34,555 nt of DNA from Tyzzerella sp. (lineage in GTDB: Bacteria > Bacillota > Clostridia > Lachnospirales > Lachnospiraceae). The stretch lies in assembly GCA_017465565.1 (NCBI GenBank), contig JAFTWA010000046.1, positions 65,897 through 100,451 of the forward strand. Direction: 5' to 3'. Made by a program: the position numbers and the translations under genes. Numbering within the stretch: position 1 is the stretch's first letter; every line of letters begins with the position of its first letter. Under the pieces are notes generated by a model. It did not search any database and was not told where the DNA came from. It saw only the letters and a program-made list of their open reading frames with translations. Below are positions 7,707-30,500 of the stretch, piece by piece.

Positions 7707-7730
7707 AATTAAGTGGGAGCCACTCTCCAA

Positions 7731-7823
7731 AATGCAATTTGGGGACACCATTAAACGCAATTTGGGACACCACTAAACGCAATTGGGGACGTAGTAAAAT
7801 TTAATTTTACTACGTCCCCAATT
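7731..7823. repeat. Palindromic repeat copy B (long form), between convergent genes
   Basis: Three tandem degenerate units beginning AATTTGGGGACACCA, AATTTGGGACACCAC and AATTGGGGACGTAGT (from about 7736, 7759 and 7781). The last forms a 20-bp perfect hairpin, 7781-7800 with 7804-7823, with a 3-nt loop. It lies between the ends of convergent genes (7706 and 7828) and could terminate both transcripts, although it lacks a classic T tract. It shares architecture with copy C at 13817 and its first unit with copy A at 6065. Confidence 0.8.
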
Positions 7824-13816: not shown

Positions 13817-13898
13817 AAGGGACACCCCAAAGTTCAATTTGGGGACACCACTAACTTAAATTTGGGACGTAGTCAAATTGAATTTTACAACGTCCCCA
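13817..13898. repeat. Palindromic repeat copy C (long form)
   Basis: AAGGGACACC, AATTTGGGGACACCACTAA (from 13836) and AATTTGGGACGTAGT (from 13859) end in an imperfect hairpin, GGGACGTAGTCAAATT (13864-13879) with AATTTTACAACGTCCC (13881-13896), which has two mismatches. The order of units matches copy B. The right edge abuts the ribosome binding site AAGGAGG of ddh, so the hairpin may affect readthrough from metG or ddh translation. Confidence 0.8.
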
Positions 13899-16624: not shown

Positions 16625-17950
16625 CTATAAATTCAACATAAACGACACATAGAACATCTCGCCCTTCTTCTCGGCACTAAACACTCCATTGTACCGTCCC
16701 ACGATATGCTTCACCGACTGAAGTCCAATTCCGCTTCCATTCGGTTTCGTCGTTAAAAATTCCCCATTTCTGGTCTTCTTAATCCCATTCTCACAGGTAT
16801 TATCAATGGTAAATACCAGAGAGTTCTTATCACCTTTTCCAGAAATAATAATCTTTCGCTTGCCCTTTTGCTGTTCCACGCATGCCTCCAGTGCATTTTC
16901 TAAAAGATTTCCAAGTATGACAGAGATATCACTTTCCGGAATGTTGAGTTCCTCGGGAATCGACAACTTCACCTGAAAATCAATATTATTATCCCGGGCC
17001 TGTGTTGCAAAGAAAAGCAGCAATCGGTTCACAGAACGGTTTTGGCAGAACAAATATGACTGGTTATCAGGCATAGACTTCTGATAGCTGTCCAGATACG
17101 CTTTTAACCGGTCATATTCCTTGGTTTCCAGATAATCCGACATTGTCAAAATATGATGGCGGAGGTCATGCCTTGCGCGGCGAGTCTCTTCCATACGGTC
17201 GTGGAGTGCCTGATATTCCAGCTTCTCGATATCCAGATAACGGTTCTGGCGCTCCAGTTCCAGGTTCTTCATTAATATGCTGTTGAGCTGAATTACAATA
17301 TAGTAAACCAAGAAGGCCCCAAGGTTCACTACTCCAAGGAAAATTACATTTCGCGGCTGCGTGATAACCTCCATCGTATTCTGAGAATTTCCGTAAACGT
17401 GATATTGCCAGATTAAATAAAAGGTCGCAGGAATCAGCCAAAAATAACTCCATTCATTTCCCACAGGATTGCTTTCTATCATAGGCTTTAATCGGCGCTT
17501 TACTGTGATAGAGAATGGCAATGTAACAAAAAGATGAAGGATTAGCATTGTCAAAGCTCCATGCCAGCAATAGAGCCGGTGTACCTGCCCCAATAGAAAT
17601 TGACTTTCAATACACACAGCAGCAATGGAAATGAGATTTGAAAAATTCGAATAAATAAATAGGATAAATAGTACTTTTCCAAAATGTGCATTCAGCGCAA
17701 TTGCAAATATTATTAAATAAGAAATAAACCGAATTAATGCAATCAGAGAAGTACTTCCTATACCAGAATATATCGAATAAAATCGAGTCAAAATCTGTAC
17801 AAGCATCGCAATGCTGCAGAGAAAAGCAGTAAATTGCTTCGAAAAACGTAAGCGGTTTGAAAACGCATACACCGACAGAACCAGATATGGCACGAAGTTT
17901 GCCAGGGCATATAACACCACTTCAATTATACGAGGAATAGATAACATCAC
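16625..17950 (-). CDS. GHKL-domain sensor histidine kinase (AgrC/VirS type)
   Basis: A membrane sensor kinase of 441 residues. About six N-terminal membrane helices (residues 5-225) resemble the peptide-sensing regions of AgrC/ComD-like kinases. A coiled linker leads to the phospho-acceptor box RRARHDLRHHILTMSDYL, then the N-box ILGNLLENALEAC and the G2 box GSGIGLQSVKHIVGRY of the GHKL ATPase. The start is GTG 17950 or the adjacent ATG 17947; AGGAG lies within the end of the regulator gene, so translation is coupled. It pairs with the LytTR regulator immediately upstream. The signal is unknown: no obvious peptide pheromone or AgrB-type processing gene is visible nearby. Confidence 0.9.
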   Translation of the reverse strand: MMLSIPRIIEVVLYALANFVPYLVLSVYAFSNRLRFSKQFTAFLCSIAMLVQILTRFYSIYSGIGSTSLIALIRFISYLIIFAIALNAHFGKVLFILFIYSNFSNLISIAAVCIESQFLLGQVHRLYCWHGALTMLILHLFVTLPFSITVKRRLKPMIESNPVGNEWSYFWLIPATFYLIWQYHVYGNSQNTMEVITQPRNVIFLGVVNLGAFLVYYIVIQLNSILMKNLELERQNRYLDIEKLEYQALHDRMEETRRARHDLRHHILTMSDYLETKEYDRLKAYLDSYQKSMPDNQSYLFCQNRSVNRLLLFFATQARDNNIDFQVKLSIPEELNIPESDISVILGNLLENALEACVEQQKGKRKIIISGKGDKNSLVFTIDNTCENGIKKTRNGEFLTTKPNGSGIGLQSVKHIVGRYNGVFSAEKKGEMFYVSFMLNL

Positions 17951-17953
17951 GCC

Positions 17954-18655
17954 CTACTCCTTTCTCATCATTTCAAAACGAAATGATGCATAAGCTTCTA
18001 AGGCATCCTTTGTTTTTCTTCGGCTGATAGGCACTTGAGCGCCATCGCTCATAAGAAACATACCATTTTCCTGCTTCACAATCTCATGAAAATTCACCAC
18101 GATTCCTTTTGAAGAACTGTAGAAATATGAATGCTCTGAAAGAATCGTCTCCCAGTCTGTCTGTGACATACGGGTCTGAATATCCTGACCATTCTTGCAG
18201 TGAACGATAATCAAATGATTATAGTATTCTGTATAAATAACATTTCTAAGAACAACGCGCTGTCCATCTGCCAAACGGATAAAGCGATTCACCTCATAAT
18301 GGTCAAGACGAATCATCTTCAGCATTCTGCCAACGCTCGTTTCAGAAATCGGTTTATGTAAATAATAATTTGCTCCTACTTCATAGCTTTCGCTTGCAAA
18401 TTCATTGCTGGTAGTGCAGAAAACAATGCGCACATCCATGTCCGTGTCGCGAACCGTCCGTGCCACTTCAATTCCCAGCATACCATCCATGAAAACATCC
18501 AGAACAACAAGGTCATATGCGCCCTCGCTCCATGTCTCAAGGAATTCTTCTCCACTCGAAAATGTGAAATATTTTGCGGTTGGGAGTTCTTTATGTAATA
18601 TAGTAAAAAGCCGTTCAAGTTCATCAACCTGATCGTCTACTAATGCAATTTTCAT
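17954..18655 (-). CDS. LytTR family response regulator
   Basis: A cytoplasmic DNA-binding response regulator of 233 residues. The start is ATG at 18655 (MKIALVDDQ) with GAGGTG 6-7 nt upstream; an extension to 18685 has no ribosome binding site. The receiver domain has the acidic pair DD (residues 7-8), phospho-acceptor Asp 53 in VVLDVFMDG, the Thr switch near 81 and Lys 101 in LHKPIS. A LytTR DNA-binding domain (about residues 130-230) includes the IYTEYYNHLIIVHC strand and SYFYSSSKGIVVN stretch. LytTR proteins bind short direct repeats spaced about two helical turns, which are found just upstream at 18707-18743. It likely controls its own operon and the divergent adhesin operon. Confidence 0.93.
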   Translation of the reverse strand: MKIALVDDQVDELERLFTILHKELPTAKYFTFSSGEEFLETWSEGAYDLVVLDVFMDGMLGIEVARTVRDTDMDVRIVFCTTSNEFASESYEVGANYYLHKPISETSVGRMLKMIRLDHYEVNRFIRLADGQRVVLRNVIYTEYYNHLIIVHCKNGQDIQTRMSQTDWETILSEHSYFYSSSKGIVVNFHEIVKQENGMFLMSDGAQVPISRRKTKDALEAYASFRFEMMRKE

Positions 18656-18676
18656 ATGTGTCACCTCACCCCCATA

Positions 18677-18705
18677 ATTATACATCCGTTTATTTCCATA
18701 ATCAA
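18677..18705 (-). promoter_or_regulatory. Promoter of the regulator/kinase operon
   Basis: On the minus strand, TTGATT (plus 18700-18705), a 17-bp spacer and TATAAT (plus 18677-18682). The -35 is 2 bp from the direct repeats. Confidence 0.75.
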
Positions 18706-18706
18706 G

Positions 18707-18743
18707 AAATTAACCGTTTGAGTTGTAAATTAACCGTTCGAGT
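18707..18743. promoter_or_regulatory. Direct-repeat LytTR-type binding site between divergent promoters
   Basis: AAATTAACCGTTTGAGT (18707-18723) and AAATTAACCGTTCGAGT (18727-18743) differ at one base and have a 20-bp period. Read on the minus strand each contains ACGGTTAAT, close to the AgrA/LytTR half-site pattern of a GTT core followed by an A-rich end. The site adjoins the -35 of the regulator operon on one side and lies 8 bp before the proposed -35 of the pseudo-receiver/adhesin operon on the other. Confidence 0.75.
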
Positions 18744-18751
18744 CACTTTTG

Positions 18752-18786
18752 TTGCCAAACAATTGTGAATACTGTAATAATATAAT
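18752..18786 (+). promoter_or_regulatory. Putative promoter of the pseudo-receiver/adhesin operon
   Basis: TTGCCA (18752-18757) with TAATAA at 18775-18780 (17-bp spacer); a TATAAT at 18781-18786 is too far away unless another -35 is used. The weak match would fit a promoter that needs an activator. Confidence 0.5.
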
Positions 18787-18820
18787 CAGAAAATTATCAG
18801 AAAACTAAGGAGGTGTGGAT

Positions 18821-19198
18821 ATGAATGTATTGATATATGGAAATGCGACTGATAAAGAACTGCTCATACAGCATATGAAGTCCCAGGCATGTATGGCATT
18901 CCGGCTTATCAATTATTTGCAGACCGACGACTACGATACGTTCCTCAAAATGCTCAAATCCAATGAGTACGAAATGGTATTCGTTATGATGGACAACGCA
19001 GCAGGAATGGAGGGTGTCATAGCAGTACAGAATCTGCACCCGGACACACCAGTTATCTGGTTCTCAAATGATAAAAATTTCGTAGCACAGTCTTACAGGC
19101 TTGGCGTCACGTATTTCTCAGTGAAGCCAATTAGCGATAAAATATTGAGCCTGGCACTTGGAAGATGCCAGAGGAGGGAGGAAGTTATATATGAATAA
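18821..19198 (+). CDS. Stand-alone degenerate receiver-like protein
   Basis: 125 residues. ATG 18821 is chosen over GTG 18815 because AAGGAGGT (18807-18814) is correctly spaced. It has a receiver-like fold pattern: strand NVLIYGN, helix, strand MVFVMMDNAAGMEG with Asp 58 at the phospho-acceptor position, strand PVIWFSN with Ser 82 at the Thr/Ser position, and YFSVKPISDK with Lys 102. The acidic pair that binds Mg2+ after the first strand is replaced by Gly-Asn, and no output domain follows. Its SYRLGVTYFSVKPIS tail resembles SYEVGANYYLHKPIS of the LytTR regulator encoded divergently, suggesting derivation from it. Its last 8 bp overlap the giant adhesin gene. Function is unknown; it is possibly a modulator of the kinase or regulator. 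Confidence 0.82.
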   Translation: MNVLIYGNATDKELLIQHMKSQACMAFRLINYLQTDDYDTFLKMLKSNEYEMVFVMMDNAAGMEGVIAVQNLHPDTPVIWFSNDKNFVAQSYRLGVTYFSVKPISDKILSLALGRCQRREEVIYE

Positions 19199-22100
19199 AG
19201 ACAGAAAAGTAAGACAGAAAAATGGAAAATTCGATATCCGCAAAGTCGGTGCAGCTGTGGTTGCGGCTATGCTGGTTGTGGCTATGGTAGTTGGGCTCGT
19301 TCCAAATGAAACAGCACAGGTACTTGCGGCGGCTACAACCGATGCTGACGTTAATACAAGTAATGGTTATTTGAGCGAGGATTTCTTAGGACATCCATAT
19401 TCTACAGAATTTGTGGGTCGTATTTGGACTGACAAGTCGGTAGATACGATTGCCGACTCACAGAATTTGCAAGTGACTTATTCCGCACTGGCAACAGGAC
19501 AATCGGTTACAGGAAAAACCGCGGCACCATTAGATGTTGTTTTTGTTATTGACATCTCAGGTTCCATGGTAAATGGAAGCAGCGGTATGCCAGATGCAAA
19601 TGGTAACAGAACATATACCCGTATGAAATATACAGTAGATGCGGTAAATGAATCTATTAGAGAAATCATGGCAATGAATGAAAATACCCGCGTTGGTGTA
19701 GTTGTATTTAGTACATCGGCTTCGGTGGTTCTTCCATTGGGACGTTACACGCAGACAACAGATCGCTGGGGCAATACATATGAGTATTTCACTCTAAGTG
19801 AAGATGAACCTAGCTCATGGAATTATCCGGAGATGACTGTCAGAGCAAATGAGATTACGACAAGAACGATAGATGTATCCGGTGGTACTAATATTCAACA
19901 GGGTATCTATACTGGTGCATCACTTCTTACAAGTGCAACAGATGTGAAATCACCGGTTCAACGTATTCCTGCATTGGTTCTCTTATCAGACGGTGCACCA
20001 AGCTACTCATCGGCAACAAATAACTGGTGGGAACCAGACCCGGATGATGGAACACTCAGTACGGGTGCTAGAAATAACGACTACTATTATGGAAATGGTA
20101 TGAAAGCCATGATGGTGGGTGCTTATATGAGACAGCAGATTAATAGCCACTATGGTATTGAGGCAAATAGTGACTATGCAGCATCATTCCATACAATTGG
20201 TATGGGTATCACGGAGCTTTCAGGAGATGCATTGAATCTTGCTAATATTACACTGAATCCAGGAGCTTACTGGAATGCTAACAATAATATGGCAAGAAAT
20301 ATTCGTACCCAATGGACGAATTATACAAGCGAAAATAATGAATACATTAATGTAACAGTTTCGGGAAATAATAGCACCGATAGATTGTATCATCCTTCTT
20401 CTGATATTGCTGCTATTAACACTTGGGTAGACAGATATCATTCAGCAGATGCGGCAGGAGACGTTTCTAGCGTATTTACAGAAATCGTGTCTGACCTTGC
20501 GCTCAGTGTTCCTGAGGTTCCAACTGAAATCAAAGAAGGTGGAACATGGGATAACAGTGGACATCTTACATATACTGACCCAATTGGAAAGTATATGGAA
20601 GTGAAAGATTATAACAACATGACCCTTACTTTCCCAACTACTGCTGGCAATACAGAAACATATACTCCAACAAACGTGGATACAAGTGTAGCTGGTAAAG
20701 TAACATGGACATTTAATCAAGCTGTTACTGGTGCGGATGAAAAAGCAACTACTTTATCAGGAATTAGTATTGTTCTCACAGAGGATGCAGATGGAAATCA
20801 GACTCTTACGGTAGATATTCCTGCAAACTTAATTCCACTTCGTGTAAATACTGTAACATTAGATGAAGATGGTGTAATTACATCACATACACATAATAAT
20901 GAACAGCCATTCAGACTTTCTTATACAGTTGGCTTACAAGATGGACTTGTAAAAGATGGTCATCTTGTTGAAGAGCCAGAAAGTATGAAAAATGATGAGG
21001 CAAAATTAGCAGCATATAAAGCTTATATTGCAACTAATACAAGTGAAGATGGCGAAGTAAAATTCTACAGCAACCTCTATACAGGTACAAATCAGGTAAC
21101 TGTGTTAGATAAAGCTACAAACACAGAAGAAGTTAGGACGGCCGGAGATGCTACAGTAGTATTTGAACCATCACACAGCAATCCTTTCTATTACATACAA
21201 GAGGATATGCCTCTTTACTTTGACGATAAATTTGAGACGCCTGTAACAGGTACCGTGAACTCATTGGATGATGACACTATTTATTATTATAAAGAAGTTT
21301 ACTATCACAATGATGAGGTTGTAACAAAAGCTGTTGCGCGTACAGGTAAACAGTTAAAGAAAACAGAAATCAACGTAAACGCATCTGGGCAGCTTGTCAG
21401 AGAAGCAGGAACTCCTCGCTTGAACAAGATTTTATTATTCGAAGGTTCAAAAGCAGCGGATACAGCAATTGCTAATACAGCTGAGGAATTCTACGCACCA
21501 ACATTCGTGCATAAAGCAGATAATCCAGACCCAGCAGAAGGACACTACAAGATCTATCTTGGTAACAACGGTGTTCTCAGCGTGAAGGTTACAGGAAGCT
21601 TAGAAATTAGCAAAATGGTAACGGCTGATGAAGGCTTAACTGCACCAGATAAAGAATTTACATTTGCCGTAGCGTTAACAGACGCGAATAATAATGCACT
21701 TACAGATACATATGCATATACAGTAGTAGATGCACAGGGAACAGAAATTGCTTCTGATGGTACAATTACAAGTGGTGGAACTATTACTTTGAAGGATGGC
21801 GAGACAGCAAAGATTATTAATCTCCCAGAAGGTTCTAAGTATACAGTAACAGAAACAAATGTACCAGCTGGATTTAAAGCATATGTTATTAATCCAGAAA
21901 CAAATGCAGAAACTCAAGGAACTGTAGTTTCAGGAGACATTGCATCAGGAGTAACAGATGAAGCAAAATTCAAGAATAATTACTCAGTAAGTAGTGTAGT
22001 TGTAAATGATGAAGATGATATAGCAACCGATTTCCGTGTTAAAAAGACAATTAATGGTAGACTAGGAGGCTGGCTTGCTACAGATGAATTCACATTTATT

Positions 22101-25100
22101 CTTGAGTCAAACAGACCTACGACACCTATGCCAGAAGGTTCAATATATGTACCGAATCAAGAAAATGCGACACATATGTTGAAAGAAGTAACCGTCAAAA
22201 ATAGTGATGAATTTACATTCGATGAAATTATTTATACAAAACCAGGCACATACACATACACGATTTCTGAACGTGTGCCAGCTACTGGTATTGCAGGTAT
22301 CTCGTATTCGGGTGCCATGTATCAAGTTATTGTAACTATATCAGACAATGGAGACGGAACATTGTCTAAAAACGTAGTTATGAATAAGTTACGTGATGAT
22401 GCAGGTTTGGTTATTACAGAAAATAATGAAGTTACAAGCAAAACGGCTGAAATTGTAAATACATTTAGTGCGAAATATGTATTATGGACACCAGTAGGAA
22501 CCAAGGATTATACAGATAATTCTGGAACAAATCCATTACAAAATGATATGTTCCAATTTAGAATCAGTGTAGCAAAAGGAAGTCCAGTAAATACACCATT
22601 ACCTAAAAATCTGGTAGAGGGCAATGTAGGACCACAGATTGCGTATGATTCAATCGAATTTACTACTGCTCATGTAGAAGTTGGAAAAACGACTACATAT
22701 ATCTACAATTTAACAGAAGTAATTCCAGAAGGTGCAACAAATAATGGAGATGGCACATATTCATTAAAAGGAATGAGTTATGATGGAAGCACAATCACTG
22801 TTAAAGTTCATGTAAGTTATAATGCTGATGGAAAGATTGTTGTACAGACCGAGTATCCAACTATGGTAGATGGTAAACATTACGACCGTGCGGTATTCTT
22901 TAACTCATACACACCGGAGTCAGTAACTCTTGGAGAAGGTACTTATGCACCACTTCAAGGTACAAAGGCTATATCAGGTCGTGAGTGGCTAGATAGTGAC
23001 AAATTTAGCTTTACAATTGAGGCTTATGGTGCTGATACAATAGCAGCAGTTGGAACAACTGTTACATTCACAAACGATGAAGGAACAGTTGTAAACTTAC
23101 CGATTACTGACGAAGTGTCAAAAGCAGATCAAACATTTGACTTTGGTAAAGTGACATTTACAAAACCAGGAACATACCAGTTTAAGATTACAGAAGTCAA
23201 TGCAGGTCAAACATCTCAAGGGCTTACTTATGATACACATGAGTGGATTGCTACTGTAGTGGTTGAAGATGAATTGGTAGAAAATGAAAGAACTGGAAAA
23301 CTCGTGGTTACATCTGTAACCTATGACAATGGTGAAGGCACAACTAATACAACTGGCGCAGCGTTTGTCAACACATACAAAGCAACATTTGAGAATAAAC
23401 CGGTTGTAGTATCAGGTAAGAAAATTCTTACAAAAGATGACAATTCTGATACAAAGGAATTAAAAGAAGGCGAATTCTTCTTCATCGTTGATGCACAAGG
23501 TTCAGCACCAATGGGTGACAGTCAGCGAGGAAATACAAATGATAAAGAAGGTAACATCTTATTATTACAGAACGTTACTTATGATGCGGTAGGCACTTAT
23601 GAATATATCATTTATGAAAATATTCCAGAGGATGCACAGAAGATAGGTGGCATTACATACGACGAAAATACAAGATATAAAGTAGTTGTAACTGTAACGG
23701 ATGATGGTCTTGGTACATTGAGTGCTAAGACAGAAGTTTATAAGAGTGTAGATAAGGGAGCAACATATAATTCAACTGCAATTGAATTAGATGAGATTGA
23801 GTTTAATAACAAATACACAACTCAGGATGCCACATACACTCCATTAAGCTTATGGAAGATTCTGAATGGAATGACTCTGGAAGCAGGGCAATTTACATTT
23901 GAAGGAAAAGTAACAGACTGTCCAGATGGTGCAGAAGTTAAGTTAACTAAAGATGGTGTTACAACTGCATTCAAGAAAAATGATACTATCGAAGTAAAAA
24001 ATGAGGCTAATGGTGCAATCCAATTTGGAGCATTGGCATTTACAAAGGTTGGAGAATATGAAATCCAAATTAAAGAAGATAGTTCTGTGAATACAATCCA
24101 AGGAATGACTTACGATTCACATGTAATCACAGTTCGTTTCGAAGTTACTGACAATGATTTAGGTCAATTAGTTGCAACTAGAACCTATATCGATGGAGAC
24201 CTTACATTTACAAACGATTACCACACAGAAGGTACACTTGATCTTCCTATTACAAAGTCATATACAAACGAAGATGGTACATCTGCATGGGAAACAAATG
24301 ACAAGTTTACATTTGTATTAAAAGCAATCGATGTAGCAGCAGAAGAAGTGGATGCTGGAAACATCGATATGAATGGAGATAAAGAAGGAACACCTAGCGA
24401 AGTCACACTTACTATAGGTCATGATGCGGCTACAACAGGTGTAACTGAAACAGGAACATTTGAAGATATCACCTTCAAAAAAGCAGGTACTTATGTATTT
24501 GAACTATACGAAGACACATTGGCAGATAGAATCCCAGGCGTTAACTATGATGGTATTCTTCGTACAGTTACAGTGGTAGCTGAAGATAATGGCGATGGAA
24601 CGATGAAGATTACTGCAACCGTTCAAACCTTAACAAGGGCAGGGGCTACTGTAGAAGGTGAGGCGGCACTCACATTCAACAACCAATTTGTACCAGAATC
24701 AACGATTCTGTATGGATGGGAAAATTTACAGGTAGTAAAAACAATTGATGGACGTGATTGGAAAGAAAGCGATACATTCCAATTTAAGTTAACAGTTGAA
24801 GATGAATGGACCCAAGCACAAATTGATGCAGGCAACGTGATAATGCCGACGGATGAGCGACTTACAATCACAATGAACAGTGATAACAGAGAAACATTAA
24901 GTTTCGGTAATATTACTTTCAAAGCTGCTACAACAGACAACAATCTTTACGAGTTTGTTGTAACAGAAACAAAGGGTGATATTCCAGGTCTTACCTATGA
25001 TACAAAGAAATACACTGTATCAGTAAAAGTGGTTGAACGAGACGGAGAAGGAAATACGGTTCTTTTAGTAATTCCTCGAGATGAGAATGACCCTGACTAT

Positions 25101-28100
25101 CCTGGAATCACAAAAACATATGATGATGGAGATGTTACAGAACAATCATCAAATGTAATAGGTTTTGTAAACAAGTATACAGCAGAACCAGATGAACTGA
25201 TTGCAGCAACACATTTGAATATTAACAAAACCTTAACAGGACGTAACTGGAACAGTAATGACTCATTTACGTTTACTCTTGCGGGTGGCGATGATGCAAC
25301 GATAAACGCAATCGCAGATGGTGAAATTAAGTTCATTGATGCCGATACAAAGGAAGCTGTTGCAGGTGCTACATCGGTTACAACAACAATTACAGCAGCA
25401 AATTCACATGTTGGTGACGATGTAAGTACAAAGGCAGCTGCATTCGGCCACGATATTCAATTTACAAAAGTTGGAACATACAGATTTGAGATTTCAGAAA
25501 ACAAACCTAGTACAATTGATGGCAAGCTTTCATATGATGAGACAAAAGCTTATGTCATTGTAGAAGTTACAGATGATACAAATGGACATTTGGTTGTGGG
25601 TGAACCAAGATACGCTGGCAACAGAATGACATTTGAAAATGTATATACACCGACTCCTATTACTCAAGCACTTAGTGGTGCAAAGGTGTTGACAGGACGT
25701 AAATTTATCGGGTCTGACCACTTTATGTTTGTACTTACTGCAACAGGTAACGCTCCAGTTCCAGAAGGAACAACAGCAGAATATCCAACGAGCAAAGTAG
25801 TAGAAATCAAAGGTGCTGACAATAGTATCGTAGCAGATACGGAAAGTGCTAGAGTTGATTTTGGCAATATCACATTTACAGAAGCTGGTGAATTTGTATA
25901 CGTTATCCGTGAAGTTGAAGGTTCTATTGCGGGAATGACATATGATACGAATAGATGGTATGCAACTGTAAAAGTTGATTACAATCCAGATACTGGCGTA
26001 TTAAGTATCGCAGATGGATATCCAATGTATACTCAAGGAACAACTTCAAATACAACAGGCTTTGTTGTTACAAATGAATATGTTCCAGAAGCTACAGAAC
26101 CAGTAAGTGTTTCAGCAGAAAAAATAGTAACTCCTAAATTATCAGGTAATACTTATGACATGGATGCTGGAGATTTTAGATTTGAAATTGAACCATCAGC
26201 TGGTAATCCAACTCCAGATCCAATTGTAGCGGTAATTACTGAAAGTGGAAGATTTGTAGAAAATGCAGAAGATGGATTTATCTCATTGTTTGATAATGTA
26301 GCATTCTCTAAAGCTGGAGATTATGTATATACAGTGCATGAAGTAGATGGCGAAAAAGGCGGAATCATTTATGATGATACAGTATATACGATTACAGTTA
26401 AAGTAACAGACAATCCAGCAGAAGCAAAATTAGAAGCAGAATTAGTTGTTGCGAAAGATGGAACTGTTTTAGGAGACAATGAAGAGATTCAGTTTAATAA
26501 TGAATATGATCCAGAGGAAACAACAGCGTCAATTCATGCTCATAAAGAGTTATTAGGTGGACATAAGAACCTTGAAGATGGAGAGTTCCAATTCAAGTTA
26601 GAGATTGTTTCGTATAATGGAGAAACTGTAGCAACTACAGATTCGAGATATTATTCAGAAATTGTATCAAATCAGTCTACAGGATTAGTTCAGTTCTCAG
26701 TAATAAATTATGCTGAAGCAGGAAAATATGTATACGCAGTTTCAGAAGTGGTTACAACAGAAAAATCGGGTTATACATATGATGACGATGAGGTTCGTAC
26801 AGTAACAGTAACAGTAGAAGATGATAGCACGGGTGCATTAAAAGCAACAGTAGATGGTGTCGTGAATGAAGATTACACTACAGCAATCCTGTTTAAGAAC
26901 ACTTACATTCCAAAATCTACATCAGCAACGCTTAGCGGAATTAAGACTTTAGCAGGTCGTGATTTGGAAAATAAAGAATTCTCGTTTGTTTTGACAGATA
27001 GCGAAGGTAAAACAGAAACTGTACAAAACTCTTATAACGAGTCTGAAGAAGATTACTCAGCAATTGTCTTTAAGTCAATTACTTATACAAAGGCAGGTGA
27101 ATACCGTTACACAATTCAAGAAAAAGTTGAAGAATTAGGCGGAGTAGACTATGACGATAGAGTTATCGATGTATTAGTAAATGTTGTTGACGAGGGTGGA
27201 AAGTTGAAAGCTGAAGAACCTGTTTACACAGTAAACGGACAGCCAGCAACTTTCGAATTCACGAACTCTTACAAAGCAGCTTCTATTCATGTAGTTCTTG
27301 ATGCTAAGAAGACATTAGAAGGCAGAGGCTTACAAGATAATGAATTTGAATTTGAATTAAAACCTATCGATAATGCTCCAATGCCATCAACAGAAGGCGT
27401 AGCTAAGGCTAAGAATGATGCAAGTGGAAAAGTAACATTTGAAGAAATCATTTTCGACAAGGTTGGAACTTATGAGTACGAGATTTCAGAAGTTGACAAT
27501 GGCATTACACATGTAACATACAGCAAAGCGAAATACACGGTGGTTGTATCAGTTACAGATGAAGGCCATGATGGGCAATTGGATGCTACTGTAAAAGTAA
27601 AAGATGCAGAAGTTGCAGAATTTATCAATACTTATACACCAACTCCAATTTCAGTTACATTTAAAGGTACAAAGACTTTAAAAGGCCGTGACTTACGAAA
27701 AGGTGAATTCGTATTCGTATTGAAGGATGCAGAAGGCAATGAGCTTGACGAAGCAACTAATGATGCAAAAGGAAACTTCATATTTGACCCTGTGAAAATT
27801 TCAGTTAAAGGTGAATACAAGTACTATATCGTAGAAAAGGATACTGATGTGAAAGGTATTACATACGATAAGGGAACATGCGTTGCTACAGTAACAGTAA
27901 CTGATGATGGCAAAGGTACATTAACACCAGTTACAACTTATACAAAAGATGCTGTAATCGCAGAATCTGTTGAGTTTACAAATACTTACAAAGCGCTTTC
28001 AACGGAAATTCAAATCGGTGCTACTAAGAAATTAGCAGGACGCGATATGAAGGCTGGCGAATTCAAATTTGTATTAGAAGATGCAAACGGCAACAAGATT

Positions 28101-28436
28101 TATGCTACAAATACTGCAGATGGAATTATTCTCTTTGAAAAGATTACCTATACAGAAGCTGGAACTTATGTTTATAAGCTTTACGAAGAAAAAGGCACAG
28201 ATAAGCATGTGACTTATGACGATAAGGTTTATACAGTTACAGTAGTGGTAGAAGATGATCTGAATGGTTCTCTCAAAGTGACAAGCGAGTTAGATGCAAA
28301 ACAATTTGAATTCAATAATAGCTACAAATCTGTTATTGAAACAGGCGACGTAACAACAATCATCCCAACAATGATTATGTTTGTTGTATCAGCAGGATAC
28401 ATCTTAGTATCTCTTGCAAAAGCTCGTAGAAGATAA
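19191..28436 (+). CDS. Giant surface adhesin: VWA domain plus tandem pilin-isopeptide modules
   Basis: 3081 residues. ATG 19191 (GGAGG at 19177-19181) is preferred over the frame's opening at 19158. A signal peptide (KVGAAVVAAMLVVAMVVGLV, cleavage near VLA-AA about residue 45) is followed by a VWA domain (about 115-450) with a complete MIDAS: DISGS (Asp 121, Ser 123, Ser 125), Thr 233 in GGTN and Asp 267 in LSDG. A linker domain of about 350 residues comes next. From about residue 803 run 16 modules of 110-165 residues. The first is Cna-B/DUF7601-like; the others are FctA/Spy0128-type pilin domains with Lys in the first strand (KTLAGR type), Glu in a YTI-E type strand and Asn in a terminal F-N-Y motif, the triad that forms Lys-Asn isopeptide bonds. 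The end is ETGD (about 3050-3053), a membrane helix and KARRR. No LPXTG is present and no sortase is nearby. The likely role is adhesion to host or other cells. Confidence 0.93.
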   Translation: MNKDRKVRQKNGKFDIRKVGAAVVAAMLVVAMVVGLVPNETAQVLAAATTDADVNTSNGYLSEDFLGHPYSTEFVGRIWTDKSVDTIADSQNLQVTYSALATGQSVTGKTAAPLDVVFVIDISGSMVNGSSGMPDANGNRTYTRMKYTVDAVNESIREIMAMNENTRVGVVVFSTSASVVLPLGRYTQTTDRWGNTYEYFTLSEDEPSSWNYPEMTVRANEITTRTIDVSGGTNIQQGIYTGASLLTSATDVKSPVQRIPALVLLSDGAPSYSSATNNWWEPDPDDGTLSTGARNNDYYYGNGMKAMMVGAYMRQQINSHYGIEANSDYAASFHTIGMGITELSGDALNLANITLNPGAYWNANNNMARNIRTQWTNYTSENNEYINVTVSGNNSTDRLYHPSSDIAAINTWVDRYHSADAAGDVSSVFTEIVSDLALSVPEVPTEIKEGGTWDNSGHLTYTDPIGKYMEVKDYNNMTLTFPTTAGNTETYTPTNVDTSVAGKVTWTFNQAVTGADEKATTLSGISIVLTEDADGNQTLTVDIPANLIPLRVNTVTLDEDGVITSHTHNNEQPFRLSYTVGLQDGLVKDGHLVEEPESMKNDEAKLAAYKAYIATNTSEDGEVKFYSNLYTGTNQVTVLDKATNTEEVRTAGDATVVFEPSHSNPFYYIQEDMPLYFDDKFETPVTGTVNSLDDDTIYYYKEVYYHNDEVVTKAVARTGKQLKKTEINVNASGQLVREAGTPRLNKILLFEGSKAADTAIANTAEEFYAPTFVHKADNPDPAEGHYKIYLGNNGVLSVKVTGSLEISKMVTADEGLTAPDKEFTFAVALTDANNNALTDTYAYTVVDAQGTEIASDGTITSGGTITLKDGETAKIINLPEGSKYTVTETNVPAGFKAYVINPETNAETQGTVVSGDIASGVTDEAKFKNNYSVSSVVVNDEDDIATDFRVKKTINGRLGGWLATDEFTFILESNRPTTPMPEGSIYVPNQENATHMLKEVTVKNSDEFTFDEIIYTKPGTYTYTISERVPATGIAGISYSGAMYQVIVTISDNGDGTLSKNVVMNKLRDDAGLVITENNEVTSKTAEIVNTFSAKYVLWTPVGTKDYTDNSGTNPLQNDMFQFRISVAKGSPVNTPLPKNLVEGNVGPQIAYDSIEFTTAHVEVGKTTTYIYNLTEVIPEGATNNGDGTYSLKGMSYDGSTITVKVHVSYNADGKIVVQTEYPTMVDGKHYDRAVFFNSYTPESVTLGEGTYAPLQGTKAISGREWLDSDKFSFTIEAYGADTIAAVGTTVTFTNDEGTVVNLPITDEVSKADQTFDFGKVTFTKPGTYQFKITEVNAGQTSQGLTYDTHEWIATVVVEDELVENERTGKLVVTSVTYDNGEGTTNTTGAAFVNTYKATFENKPVVVSGKKILTKDDNSDTKELKEGEFFFIVDAQGSAPMGDSQRGNTNDKEGNILLLQNVTYDAVGTYEYIIYENIPEDAQKIGGITYDENTRYKVVVTVTDDGLGTLSAKTEVYKSVDKGATYNSTAIELDEIEFNNKYTTQDATYTPLSLWKILNGMTLEAGQFTFEGKVTDCPDGAEVKLTKDGVTTAFKKNDTIEVKNEANGAIQFGALAFTKVGEYEIQIKEDSSVNTIQGMTYDSHVITVRFEVTDNDLGQLVATRTYIDGDLTFTNDYHTEGTLDLPITKSYTNEDGTSAWETNDKFTFVLKAIDVAAEEVDAGNIDMNGDKEGTPSEVTLTIGHDAATTGVTETGTFEDITFKKAGTYVFELYEDTLADRIPGVNYDGILRTVTVVAEDNGDGTMKITATVQTLTRAGATVEGEAALTFNNQFVPESTILYGWENLQVVKTIDGRDWKESDTFQFKLTVEDEWTQAQIDAGNVIMPTDERLTITMNSDNRETLSFGNITFKAATTDNNLYEFVVTETKGDIPGLTYDTKKYTVSVKVVERDGEGNTVLLVIPRDENDPDYPGITKTYDDGDVTEQSSNVIGFVNKYTAEPDELIAATHLNINKTLTGRNWNSNDSFTFTLAGGDDATINAIADGEIKFIDADTKEAVAGATSVTTTITAANSHVGDDVSTKAAAFGHDIQFTKVGTYRFEISENKPSTIDGKLSYDETKAYVIVEVTDDTNGHLVVGEPRYAGNRMTFENVYTPTPITQALSGAKVLTGRKFIGSDHFMFVLTATGNAPVPEGTTAEYPTSKVVEIKGADNSIVADTESARVDFGNITFTEAGEFVYVIREVEGSIAGMTYDTNRWYATVKVDYNPDTGVLSIADGYPMYTQGTTSNTTGFVVTNEYVPEATEPVSVSAEKIVTPKLSGNTYDMDAGDFRFEIEPSAGNPTPDPIVAVITESGRFVENAEDGFISLFDNVAFSKAGDYVYTVHEVDGEKGGIIYDDTVYTITVKVTDNPAEAKLEAELVVAKDGTVLGDNEEIQFNNEYDPEETTASIHAHKELLGGHKNLEDGEFQFKLEIVSYNGETVATTDSRYYSEIVSNQSTGLVQFSVINYAEAGKYVYAVSEVVTTEKSGYTYDDDEVRTVTVTVEDDSTGALKATVDGVVNEDYTTAILFKNTYIPKSTSATLSGIKTLAGRDLENKEFSFVLTDSEGKTETVQNSYNESEEDYSAIVFKSITYTKAGEYRYTIQEKVEELGGVDYDDRVIDVLVNVVDEGGKLKAEEPVYTVNGQPATFEFTNSYKAASIHVVLDAKKTLEGRGLQDNEFEFELKPIDNAPMPSTEGVAKAKNDASGKVTFEEIIFDKVGTYEYEISEVDNGITHVTYSKAKYTVVVSVTDEGHDGQLDATVKVKDAEVAEFINTYTPTPISVTFKGTKTLKGRDLRKGEFVFVLKDAEGNELDEATNDAKGNFIFDPVKISVKGEYKYYIVEKDTDVKGITYDKGTCVATVTVTDDGKGTLTPVTTYTKDAVIAESVEFTNTYKALSTEIQIGATKKLAGRDMKAGEFKFVLEDANGNKIYATNTADGIILFEKITYTEAGTYVYKLYEEKGTDKHVTYDDKVYTVTVVVEDDLNGSLKVTSELDAKQFEFNNSYKSVIETGDVTTIIPTMIMFVVSAGYILVSLAKARRR
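21597..28336 (+). repeat. Coding array of 16 pilin-type modules in the adhesin
   Basis: Approximate module starts are 21597 (Cna-B/DUF7601-like), then 22000, 22480, 22922, 23391, 23832, 24233, 24702, 25200, 25660, 26103, 26526, 26918, 27284, 27648 and 28005. Each ends with a variant of F-x-N-x-Y (FVNTY, FNNEY, FTNTY, FNNSY; FNNQF in the seventh). Sequence identity between modules is low at DNA level, so this is an old protein-repeat array, not a recent tandem duplication. Module length falls from about 160 residues near the VWA domain to about 110 next to the membrane anchor. Confidence 0.85.
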
Positions 28437-28732: not shown

Positions 28733-29632
28733 ATGAAATTAAAAGAAGTATTAGCAAACTTTAAACGTGTTTTCGTGAAGCGGAAGTATAAGGATATACT
28801 ATTTCGTTATGTGTTTCGGGAGAAGCAGGAAATTTTACAATTGTATAATGCCATTAATCACACAAATTATACAAATCCAGATGATTTAATGATTACTACA
28901 ATGGAAGATGCAATTTATATTGGCATGAAGAATGACTTATCTTTTCTGGTTGCCAATGAACTGAATCTGTACGAGCATCAGAGTACCCTGAATAAAAATA
29001 TGCCTCTCCGAGGTCTGTTTTATATCGCTAAAATGTATGAGGGCTATATCGAAACACATGGACTGAACAAATATCAGAAAACACTCATCAAGTTACCATT
29101 TCCGAGATTTGTTGTCTTTTATAATGGTGAGGATAACATACCCGAGGAATTGTGTATGAGGCTTTCAGATGCATTCGAAAAACACGAGGAAGAACCGGCT
29201 GTAGAATGTGTAGCAAGGTTTATAAATATTAATTATGGACACAATCAGGAGCTTCTTAATAGCTGCAAGCGATTGCATGACTATTCTTATTTTGTGAACT
29301 GCGTGCGAGGATATTTGAAGAAGGGCTTAGGGAAAAAAGAAGCGATTGTCTTAGCAACAGATAAATGCATTGAAGAAGGAATTTTGAAAGATGTTTTGGT
29401 AAAACATCGTGCGGAGGTAGTGGATATGTTTTTGACTACGTTTGATAAGAAGATGTATGAGGAGGCTGTACGTGAAGAAGGCCGCGAGGAAGAACGAGTA
29501 AATACGGAGCGTGAACGAGCAAATGCAGAGCGCGAACGAGCAAATGCAGAGCGTGAACGTCAACGTGCAGAAAAAGCAGAAGCAGAACTTGAGAAACTCC
29601 GTGAGGAGATGGCAAGGTTAAAAGGCGAATGA
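28733..29632 (+). CDS. Rpn family recombination-promoting nuclease / PD-(D/E)XK transposase-like protein
   Basis: 299 residues. The N-terminal two thirds match the Rpn/PDDEXK-transposase family of small nucleases linked to horizontal transfer and RecA-independent recombination in RpnA. The nuclease core is recognisable in NDLSFLVANELNLYEHQST (Asp, then E-x-x-x-Y-E-H-Q), preceded by TTMEDAIYIGMK and followed by NMPLRGLFYIAKMYEGYI and LPFPRFVVFYNGED. The C-terminus (about residues 245-299) is a highly charged coiled coil with a 7-residue repeat of ANAERER type. The ribosome binding site can be closed by a hairpin. The gene lies between two related terminator hairpins, suggesting it was inserted or arose with a local duplication. 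Whether it is active is unknown. Confidence 0.83.
   Translation: MKLKEVLANFKRVFVKRKYKDILFRYVFREKQEILQLYNAINHTNYTNPDDLMITTMEDAIYIGMKNDLSFLVANELNLYEHQSTLNKNMPLRGLFYIAKMYEGYIETHGLNKYQKTLIKLPFPRFVVFYNGEDNIPEELCMRLSDAFEKHEEEPAVECVARFININYGHNQELLNSCKRLHDYSYFVNCVRGYLKKGLGKKEAIVLATDKCIEEGILKDVLVKHRAEVVDMFLTTFDKKMYEEAVREEGREEERVNTERERANAERERANAERERQRAEKAEAELEKLREEMARLKGE
29486..29569 (+). repeat. Four tandem 21-bp units inside the Rpn gene
   Basis: Units at 29486, 29507, 29528 and 29549, the middle two nearly identical (differing at one base). Each encodes one heptad of the coiled coil (ERERANA type). In-frame gain or loss would change coiled-coil length without breaking the frame. Confidence 0.85.
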
Positions 29633-29661
29633 TAAGAAAGAAGAAATATGCAAAATGACAG

Positions 29662-29689
29662 ACGGGATTCTGAAAGGAGTCCCTGTTTT
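29662..29689 (+). terminator. Terminator-like hairpin, related copy of 28483
   Basis: GGGATTC-TGAAA-GGAGTCCC followed by TGTTTTG. The preceding AATATGCAAAATGA also matches AATATGCAGAATGA before the first hairpin (28450), so the homology extends beyond the stem. It ends the Rpn transcript. Confidence 0.75.
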
Positions 29690-29729
29690 GTTGAGAGCCT
29701 TTATTGTAAGCAGGTATATAAGGAGTAGA

Positions 29730-30500
29730 ATGTATAATTCAATTTTTGACATCGAATTTATTCAAAAGACAACCTACAATTTCCAGATTTCTGTGACAAC
29801 AGTAAAACGTTATTTGCATGAATGTTTGGCAAATCAGATTATAGTGAAAGATGTGTTGTATACTGAAATCACGATTACAGATGATGGGATTGGTATTTTC
29901 AAGAATATACAGAATTATTTGACGGTGGAGCTGGGAAAGAGGGTTACATATCAGGATGTGTTGGTAGAGCTGTATAAGGGAAAAATGACGACCGCGGCTC
30001 AAAATCATTCTGGAGAAGGAGTTTTCTTCAGTTCTAAGTCAATGGATGAATTTGCTATTTGGTCGGATGATATGGTGTATGTGCAGGGTGTTCAAGAAAG
30101 GAACCAGTTCATGCAGAATCATTTAATCGCATATTATACAAGACTGCAAAGGATTGGAACGGCAGTGATGATGAAACTAGCTAATCAGAGCAAACGCGCG
30201 TTAAAAGAGGTGTTTAGTATGTACTCTACAATAGATGAAGGATTTATTAAGACGAGAATACCGATAAAAGAGGTCTGCCAAGAGGGTGAGCCAATTGCAC
30301 GTTCGCAGGCGAGAAAGCTTCTTTATAGGCTGGAACAGTTTAAAATAGTAGAATTTGATTTTGCCGAAGTGGATTTCATGGGACAGGGATTTGCGGATGA
30401 AGTGTTCCGGGTTTTTAAAAATAGACATCCTGAGGTTGAGATTGTTCCAATAAATGCGTGTCCAGATATTTTGTCAATGGTAAAACATGTACAGAGATAA
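29730..30500 (+). CDS. HATPase / STAS-like (DUF4325) protein with probable internal deletion
   Basis: 256 residues from ATG 29730 (AAGGAG ends 4 nt before). The frame opens at 29655, but that ATG lies within the terminator-like hairpin copy. Order: a remnant helix-turn-helix (ISVTTVKRYLHECLANQII, about residues 20-38), then the GHKL G1 box TDDGIGIF (about 50-56), KGKMTTAAQNHSGEGVFFSS (G2 box, His 93), a helical linker, and a C-terminal STAS-like DUF4325 domain with VEFDFAEVDFMGQGFADEVF. In full-length relatives about 100 residues including the N-box (E-x-x-x-N) lie between the HTH and the G1 box; here they are missing. Either a deletion fused the two parts in frame or this is a divergent form. 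ATP binding would be impaired without the N-box. Confidence 0.72.
   Translation: MYNSIFDIEFIQKTTYNFQISVTTVKRYLHECLANQIIVKDVLYTEITITDDGIGIFKNIQNYLTVELGKRVTYQDVLVELYKGKMTTAAQNHSGEGVFFSSKSMDEFAIWSDDMVYVQGVQERNQFMQNHLIAYYTRLQRIGTAVMMKLANQSKRALKEVFSMYSTIDEGFIKTRIPIKEVCQEGEPIARSQARKLLYRLEQFKIVEFDFAEVDFMGQGFADEVFRVFKNRHPEVEIVPINACPDILSMVKHVQR

Follow-up and report, generated by a model that had tools for sequence, protein, structure and literature searches.

The window analyzed here, a stretch of 34,555 nucleotides from Tyzzerella sp., contains a locus in which a two-component system (TCS), made of a GHKL membrane sensor histidine kinase and a LytTR response regulator (RR), faces a divergent operon encoding a receiver-only pseudo-receiver (PR) and a giant surface protein of 3081 amino acids (aa). 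The locus is proposed to be a dedicated surface-protein expression cassette, in which the PR tunes its own TCS, most likely by negative feedback. From comparative sequence analysis, this reading is given a probability of roughly 60%. The gene order, the loss of the phospho-acceptor Asp, the separate grouping of the PRs, the direct repeats of the control region, and the exchange of the target genes are established by sequence.

In the proposed mechanism, the kinase would sense a signal and phosphorylate the RR, which would bind direct repeats of a 20-bp period and activate the adjacent promoter. The PR and the giant protein would be co-expressed from that promoter. The PR, not phosphorylatable at the usual site, would pair with the RR receiver or occupy the kinase, setting the output, and would most likely exert negative feedback and so restrain the production of a very costly protein. 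The steps differ in strength: binding of the RR to the repeats, with activation of the PR/giant operon, is very likely; an action of the PR on its own TCS is likely; and for the feedback a negative sign is favored, more tentatively.

The cassette and its distribution

The window belongs to a 3.22-Mb draft genome of 62 contigs (G000). Tyzzerella is placed by NCBI in the Lachnospiraceae, Lachnospirales, and metagenome-assembled genomes named 'Tyzzerella sp.' from roe deer rectum and goat cecum are the two named records with a close PR relative. On the minus strand, the kinase (16625-17950, 441 aa; PF14501 HATPase_c_5, 72.9 bits; SPOB_a at 22.2 bits, under the cut-off) adjoins the RR (17954-18655; PF00072, 68.1 bits; LytTR PF04397, 33.2 bits), as in a GHKL/LytTR TCS. 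The receiver of the RR is intact, with the DD/D/T/K set present as D7, D8, D53, T81, and K101; its start at ATG 18655 matches the relatives in the alignment, and the open reading frame (ORF) could begin at 18685. Across an intergenic stretch of 165 bp (18656-18820), the plus strand carries the PR (18821-19198, 125 aa), which lacks the phospho-acceptor Asp and has the family Trp as W80. It matches PF00072 at E 8.5e-6, yet its 26.3 bits are below the gathering score of 30.2. The start of the giant gene (19191-28436, plus strand; FctA, VWA_2, and DUF7601 matches) overlaps the PR stop by 8 bp. The giant protein is composed of an N-terminal hydrophobic segment (assigned by a hydropathy script), a VWA head, DUF7601, 15 stretches of FctA (Spy0128-like isopeptide; 822.8 bits), and a C-terminus of ETGD, a hydrophobic stretch, and KARRR, where no canonical LPXTG is found. 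An earlier reading of the window from its letters (the sequence-only reading) had given these coordinates and gene calls and had described the receiver as degenerate; both descriptions hold.

The sequence-only reading also regarded the regulator, the lone receiver, and one enormous target as a self-contained cassette, and named the absence of the four-gene order from related genomes as one result that would refute it. The order is found in three of the ten genus genomes, namely the window genome, G008 (L023/L027), and G009 (L024), and a related form exists beyond the genus, so the claim stands. The kinase has relatives of 57% in G008 and 51% in G009, and the PR relatives in both reach 72-74%. 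The G009 giant (2851 aa) carries FctA and VWA. The G008 giant (3779 aa) has 20 Cna_B stretches as its sole Pfam family at E 0.001, with neither FctA nor VWA; its first 600-700 aa align with the G000 and G009 giants at 26-30%, so that a related head is joined to a different stalk. The cassette of G000 and G009 is flanked by ksgA and citrate synthase. The corresponding gap is 197 bp in G008, where the cassette is elsewhere on the contig, and about 0.8-0.9 kb without a cassette in G004 and G005, with a 246-aa ORF between the two genes in G004. Among the nine genomes with a ksgA match, two have the cassette at this site, three have the neighbors without it, and four were not resolved.

The search was extended beyond the genus with a five-receiver alignment (A2), run against 397 family genomes and 392 genomes of the order, and the neighborhoods of short-ORF matches were annotated by script and with Pfam. 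After the removal of L102 and L103, which are CheY-like, keep the phospho-site, and have no LytTR neighbor, and the addition of L115 and L147, the set comprises 33 PR loci, which come from four families within the order. In 23 of them the PR has an intact LytTR RR in divergent orientation, and an RR remnant is present in one (L026). In the remaining nine, the RR shares the strand of the PR (L087), converges on it (L111), or is outside the stretch covered (L104, L114, L118, L147), or the contig ends just upstream of the PR (L095, L105, L115). A kinase, recognized by similarity to that of the window or of L025, is located behind the RR in 21 of the 23 loci; L094 has none, and L112 is cut by the end of the stretch covered. 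Six loci (L025, L090, L091, L101, L110, L113) form a subtype with an ORF of 580-750 aa interposed between RR and kinase, which has no Pfam match in L025.

The next same-strand ORF behind the PR has at least 683 aa in 21 of the 33 loci and at least 1,100 aa in 18, the length at L092 including masked bases. A CotH/VTC/DUF4956/GT2 operon takes this position in two loci (L025, L089), and the downstream gene is not assessable for L093 and, at a contig end, L118. At L089 (7519-19901) the PR is enclosed by two LytTR/GHKL pairs, followed by the L025-like operon with relatives of VTC, DUF4956, CotH, and GT2. At L115 (8116-13999) a LytTR RR and a kinase separate the PR from a CotH/VTC/DUF4956 set that follows it at a distance of about 7.6 kb.

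The partner of the PR is most likely the TCS, because the PR stays with the TCS where the giant is absent (L087, L088, L091, L100, L111) or replaced (L025, L089). The same loci speak against a role of the PR in serving the giant, by translation coupling or as a chaperone or export adaptor, rather than the TCS. This role would agree with the gene junctions, where the PR stop and the giant start overlap or adjoin (8 bp in the window, 4 bp in L110, adjacent in L090). It is nevertheless quite improbable: the giants are of several types while the PRs are one family, and one giant, in G037, has no PR.

A pseudo-receiver family apart from its partner regulators

The family was defined in an alignment of 39 receiver-only proteins (37 PRs, with L102 and L103) and 25 partner RRs. 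The phospho-acceptor Asp is missing in all 37 PRs through a common two-residue deletion ending strand 3, and is kept in all 25 RRs. Where 24 of the 25 RRs carry Phe before Thr/Ser, Trp is present in 35 of the 37 PRs and Ile in the other two (L117, L118). Both marks of an Asp-less receiver, a recognizable receiver domain and the absent Asp, are found in the PR. The PR profile matches solved receivers, including ComE, and the 60 listed solved relatives are receivers or response regulators by name, with a few others, e.g., one de novo protein. The Pfam scan of the window PR returned a receiver match only, and no DNA-binding or output domain was found. With the secondary-structure elements placed by hand, conservation peaks in strand 4 (2.75 bits), and helix 4, strand 5, and strand 1 are at about 2.26; the most conserved single positions are W80, P103, G62, F99, F87, and R93.

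A maximum-likelihood tree was built from 89 receivers (33 Trp-type PRs, two Ile-type PRs, and 54 RRs over 122 columns; bootstrap not settled), and the Trp-type PRs form one side of a branch in it, with support 98/95. Joining the two Ile-type PRs to them is not rejected by the approximately unbiased (AU) test (p 0.256). The PRs therefore stand apart from the RRs and may form one clade; a single origin fits and is unproven. The word paralogue, used for the PR in the sequence-only reading, has to be qualified, since the PR is not a recent copy of the neighboring RR. Repeated copying from the local RR does not fit either, with two changes in the tree built without the hallmark columns versus 26.8 in shuffles.

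A related possibility is that the PR is a functionless, decaying duplicate of the neighboring RR. Its score under the Pfam threshold, the lost phospho-site, and a broken copy in G308 would fit such decay, which is nonetheless hardly credible in view of the grouping of PRs apart from the RRs and not each with its neighbor, the Trp of 35 out of 37 PRs, and the retention of the PR in four families. The dN values are also far below dS. Between congeners, PR dN is 0.17-0.22 with dS near or beyond saturation (NG86), and RR dN is 0.18-0.27.

A profile of 32 PRs (A4), largely the same loci that it recovers and with ten candidates scored per genome, reaches at least 94 bits in 16 of the 397 family genomes, and RRs score up to 82 bits. 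The candidate of G198, at 72 bits, is a further PR by paired profiles (74.0 vs. 52.7), and that of G308, at 75 bits, is a broken PR. Because the G198 PR has an ordinary-RR-like score, the PR profile alone separates PRs from RRs uncleanly. Trp-type PRs are present in 1 of 58 genomes of family f17, in 2 of 24 of f2, and in one genome of f16. A class sample of 291 genomes was also searched. Among the matches listed, beyond which weak PRs may be hidden, the best new short one (G747) is a truncated RR (RR profile 134, PR profile 78), as is another (G986; 118 vs. 43).

Some loci depart from the single-PR arrangement. Two PR-type genes stand in tandem ahead of the large ORF in L090, L110, L112, L113, and L114; the second copies of L110, L112, L113, and L114 form their own branch together with a single L112 copy, and the second L090 copy is outside it. 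At L091 (9779-10517) the PR is overlapped by a separate stand-alone LytTR-domain ORF, as though a full regulator had been split.

Repeats, promoters, and the sign of control

The intergenic stretch of the window contains two LytTR-type direct repeats of a 20-bp period on the plus strand, copy 1 (ACCGTTTGAG) at 18713-18722 and copy 2 (ACCGTTCGAG) at 18733-18742. Two putative promoters, both recognized by consensus match, flank them. The PR/giant-ward promoter (18752-18786, plus strand) has the -35 TTGCCA at 18752-18757 and the -10 region TAATAATATAAT at 18775-18786, and is the top-scoring site of a scan run independently of the repeats. The RR-ward promoter (18677-18705, minus strand) is of sigma-A type, with the -10 TATAAT at 18677-18682, the -35 TTGATT at 18700-18705, and a 17-bp spacer. 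The layout toward the PR is 9-bp ACCGTTTGA, 11 bp, ACCGTTCGA, 10 bp, and TTGCCA. The repeats, which the sequence-only reading had noticed, do look LytTR-type: the stretch matches itself at 15 of 16 positions at the 20-bp period, which 0 of 200 dinucleotide shuffles equalled, and the genome holds one exact pair. In operons of the LytTR Regulatory System (LRS), most repeats are separated by 12 bp and some by 11 or 13 bp, and they stand upstream of the -35 with a strong preference for a distance of 10 bp (PMC6193735; this and the other sources cited are drawn on in part). Because the window repeats sit beside the PR-ward -35 in this published LytTR-type layout, the RR most likely activates the PR/giant operon.

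Direct repeats of about two helical turns before the target -35 are found in the window and in 16 of 22 relatives. Over 22 control regions (near-identical L112 left out, the microsatellite part of L116 cut off), the best 13-nt direct repeat reaches at least 10/13 matches at the exact 20-bp period in 16. Each other period from 14 to 33 occurs in 0-3 of the 22, and 100 shuffles gave a mean of 0.63 and a maximum of 3. The promoter scan was applied to the whole of the 16 period-20 regions with the repeats ignored. Counted from the start of repeat 2, the -35 of the best promoter lies 12-28 nt further on in 12 of them, about 0.10 per region being expected by chance, and that of one of the three best does so in 14. 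Box similarity also tracks LytTR-domain similarity (n = 20, Mantel r 0.68, 0/5000 permutations). This test is not blind, the -35 positions being hand-set in 20 of the 22 regions (L025 and L091 not placed); the period count and the promoter scan are independent of these positions. PR divergence follows the LytTR domain as well (n = 20, r 0.867, 0/5000), and this is the second reason why the PR is likely to act on the TCS.

A degenerate pattern of the window box pair matches G000 exactly at one place only, the cassette itself, and recovers the cassettes of G009 (exact), G201 (one mismatch), and G008 (two mismatches). The remaining matches have three mismatches and are chance-like, the reversed control pattern giving 6 and 2 in G000. 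For the ACCGCTTG pair, exact sites number two in G669, two in G446, and one in G429, and the reversed control gives none. The G669 sites lie in the cassette and before a second PR/giant unit without an RR in the surroundings covered, and both G446 sites precede PR/giant units. In G037, where the cassette RR is broken, two sites have two mismatches each. The second of these (L127 9878-14868) lies before a gene pair for a kinase and a LuxR-type regulator; three small proteins are encoded next, one of them weakly matching camelysin.

The sequence-only reading further suggested that one bound regulator could drive both operons from the repeats. The window does have a good RR-ward promoter match (TTGATT-17-TATAAT) that begins 7 bp past repeat 1, and the distance is the same in G009. 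Among 15 cassettes, however, the distance from the best RR-ward -35 to repeat 1 ranges from 1 to 42 bp, and in most regions a PR-ward promoter closely follows repeat 2. Two-way driving is thus unlikely and is not a conserved design. By eye, terminator-like hairpins with a T-run were noticed between promoter and PR in the leaders of L090, L093, L098, L101, L110, L112, and L116, a possible attenuation before a very long gene; none was noticed in the window leader.

For the sign of PR action, negative feedback is favored because no DNA-binding domain was detected in the PR and because it is encoded with the product. The alternative is a positive co-factor, in which a PR/RR heterodimer would lock the active form and give a bistable ON operon. 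The same genetics would fit both, and heterodimers of a regulator with an atypical regulator have precedents in BldM/WhiI and, apparently, CmrR/CmrT (PMC12548384, PMC12632262). Since no DNA-binding domain was found in the PR, such a heterodimer would put one LytTR domain on a two-box site. A positive role is somewhat unlikely, although the sequence does not decide the sign.

Several observations weigh against the cassette with a PR acting on its TCS. Neither a giant nor the operon follows the PR in 8 of the 33 loci (L026, L087, L088, L091, L095, L100, L111, L147), and L147 also shows no RR within 17.5 kb. The correlation of PR and RR may come from joint inheritance alone. The 98/95 support of the PR clade is lost once the hallmark columns are omitted; the free tree then needs two changes instead of one, and the one-PR-clade tree is 5 log units better (AU p 0.62). 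A period-20 pair of 10/13 is lacking in 6 of the 22 regions, namely L025, L091, L096, and L099 (9/13) and L100 and L101 (period 21). Taken singly, only 12 of 24 regions are equalled by no more than 4 of 200 shuffles, among them L025 by an AT-rich 22-bp repeat and L116 by its microsatellite. The leader control of the box comparison also correlates (r 0.33, 1/5000). Finally, one of the G037 near-box sites precedes the giant without a PR, an SLH protein.

Exchangeable output and known systems

Among 358 ORFs of at least 150 aa in the PR neighborhoods, 24 have at least 1,100 aa, and 20 of these 24 are PR-linked and surface-type (with the G008 gene entered twice and masked ORFs excluded). Pfam matches of the large proteins are to FctA, Cna_B, YDG/MBG, InlB-type, fn3, LRR/DUF285, or nothing, the products of L094, L096, and L105 having no family in the Pfam scan. 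Some are mutually related, e.g., L098/L104 and L110/L112/L113/L117. Where the type of C-terminus can be recognized, it is sortase-like, consists of SLH or choline-binding-like repeats, or is a hydrophobic tail. By the hydropathy script, the N-terminus is hydrophobic in all but two of 23 sequences, one of the two being the second half of a split ORF and the other an ORF whose start is set too early; the 688-aa product of L115 is outside this analysis. As judged from these matches, the types of large protein vary and the regulatory core stays.

Each component is of a known kind. The LRS (e.g., HdrRM/BrsRM) shares the direct repeats, each about 9 bp long, with 11-13 bp between them and commonly 10 bp before the -35; its boxes vary between regulators, and ACC.CTT-type boxes occur. 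It differs in pairing a LytTR regulator with a membrane inhibitor, whereas the cassette has a kinase/RR and a PR, and its repeats serve a divergent surface-protein operon (PMC6193735). The window RR has a receiver, and its partner is a GHKL kinase. Asp-less receivers are likewise assigned to the receiver family by profile and lack the phospho-acceptor; the PR is distinguished by being stand-alone and linked to a LytTR TCS, by the common two-residue deletion, and by the Trp of 35/37 (PMC12632262). Neither 'LytTR' nor 'adhesin' occurs in the main text of that review. In CmrRST of Clostridioides difficile, a normal kinase/RR is encoded together with an Asp-less regulator, and heterodimers appear to form, but CmrT belongs to the OmpR family of transcription factors and has Glu in place of the Asp (PMC12548384); the PR has 125 aa, a receiver match only with no detected output domain, and a place in the divergent operon. 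PlnC and PlnD of Lactobacillus plantarum are two homologous regulators, an activator and a repressor, acting on one regulon through the same DNA repeats, and both bind DNA, unlike the PR, in which no such domain was found (PMC2714321). The operons of L025 and L089 share CotH, the polyphosphate polymerase (VTC here), and DUF4956 with Gram-positive Pel accessory genes, while that of L025 also has GT2, a HEAT-like ORF, and two ORFs without a Pfam match (PMC7112168). Full-text searches of open-licence papers, limited to the best-ranked where many fitted, gave no account of the combination, the PR family, or the exchangeable output, and these three appear to be new.

Further features were observed elsewhere in the window. 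Between the cassette and a DUF4325/STAS-like gene lies a 299-aa ORF (28733-29632), with a YhgA-like transposase match of 15.9 bits (cut-off 21) and 21-bp tandem repeats near its end (29492-29559); it is missing at the corresponding G009 position. The STAS-like gene (29655-30500, 281 aa) is about 65 aa shorter than its 348-aa G009 relative (L024:19078-20124), by a deletion or an assembly error. The missing part includes MMNNAIEH, a segment that we take to resemble an ATPase N-box. Tandem repeats of 22-23 bp with common GGGGACACCAC-like units are found at 7730-7790 and 13819-13866.

The on/off mechanisms of pseudo-receivers 'remain a mystery' (PMC12632262). In this cassette the PR stands beside a kinase/RR pair, with one likely promoter and one large output, and therefore its effect could be followed with a single reporter. 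More tentatively, and with somewhat less than even confidence, a dedicated family of non-phosphorylatable receivers may provide plug-in governors of LytTR TCSs, within a relocatable chassis that swaps giants and matrix operons. The PR profile finds such loci, whose small gene falls under the Pfam threshold, and the finding suggests how gut Lachnospirales may exchange very large surface proteins while the type of control stays the same.

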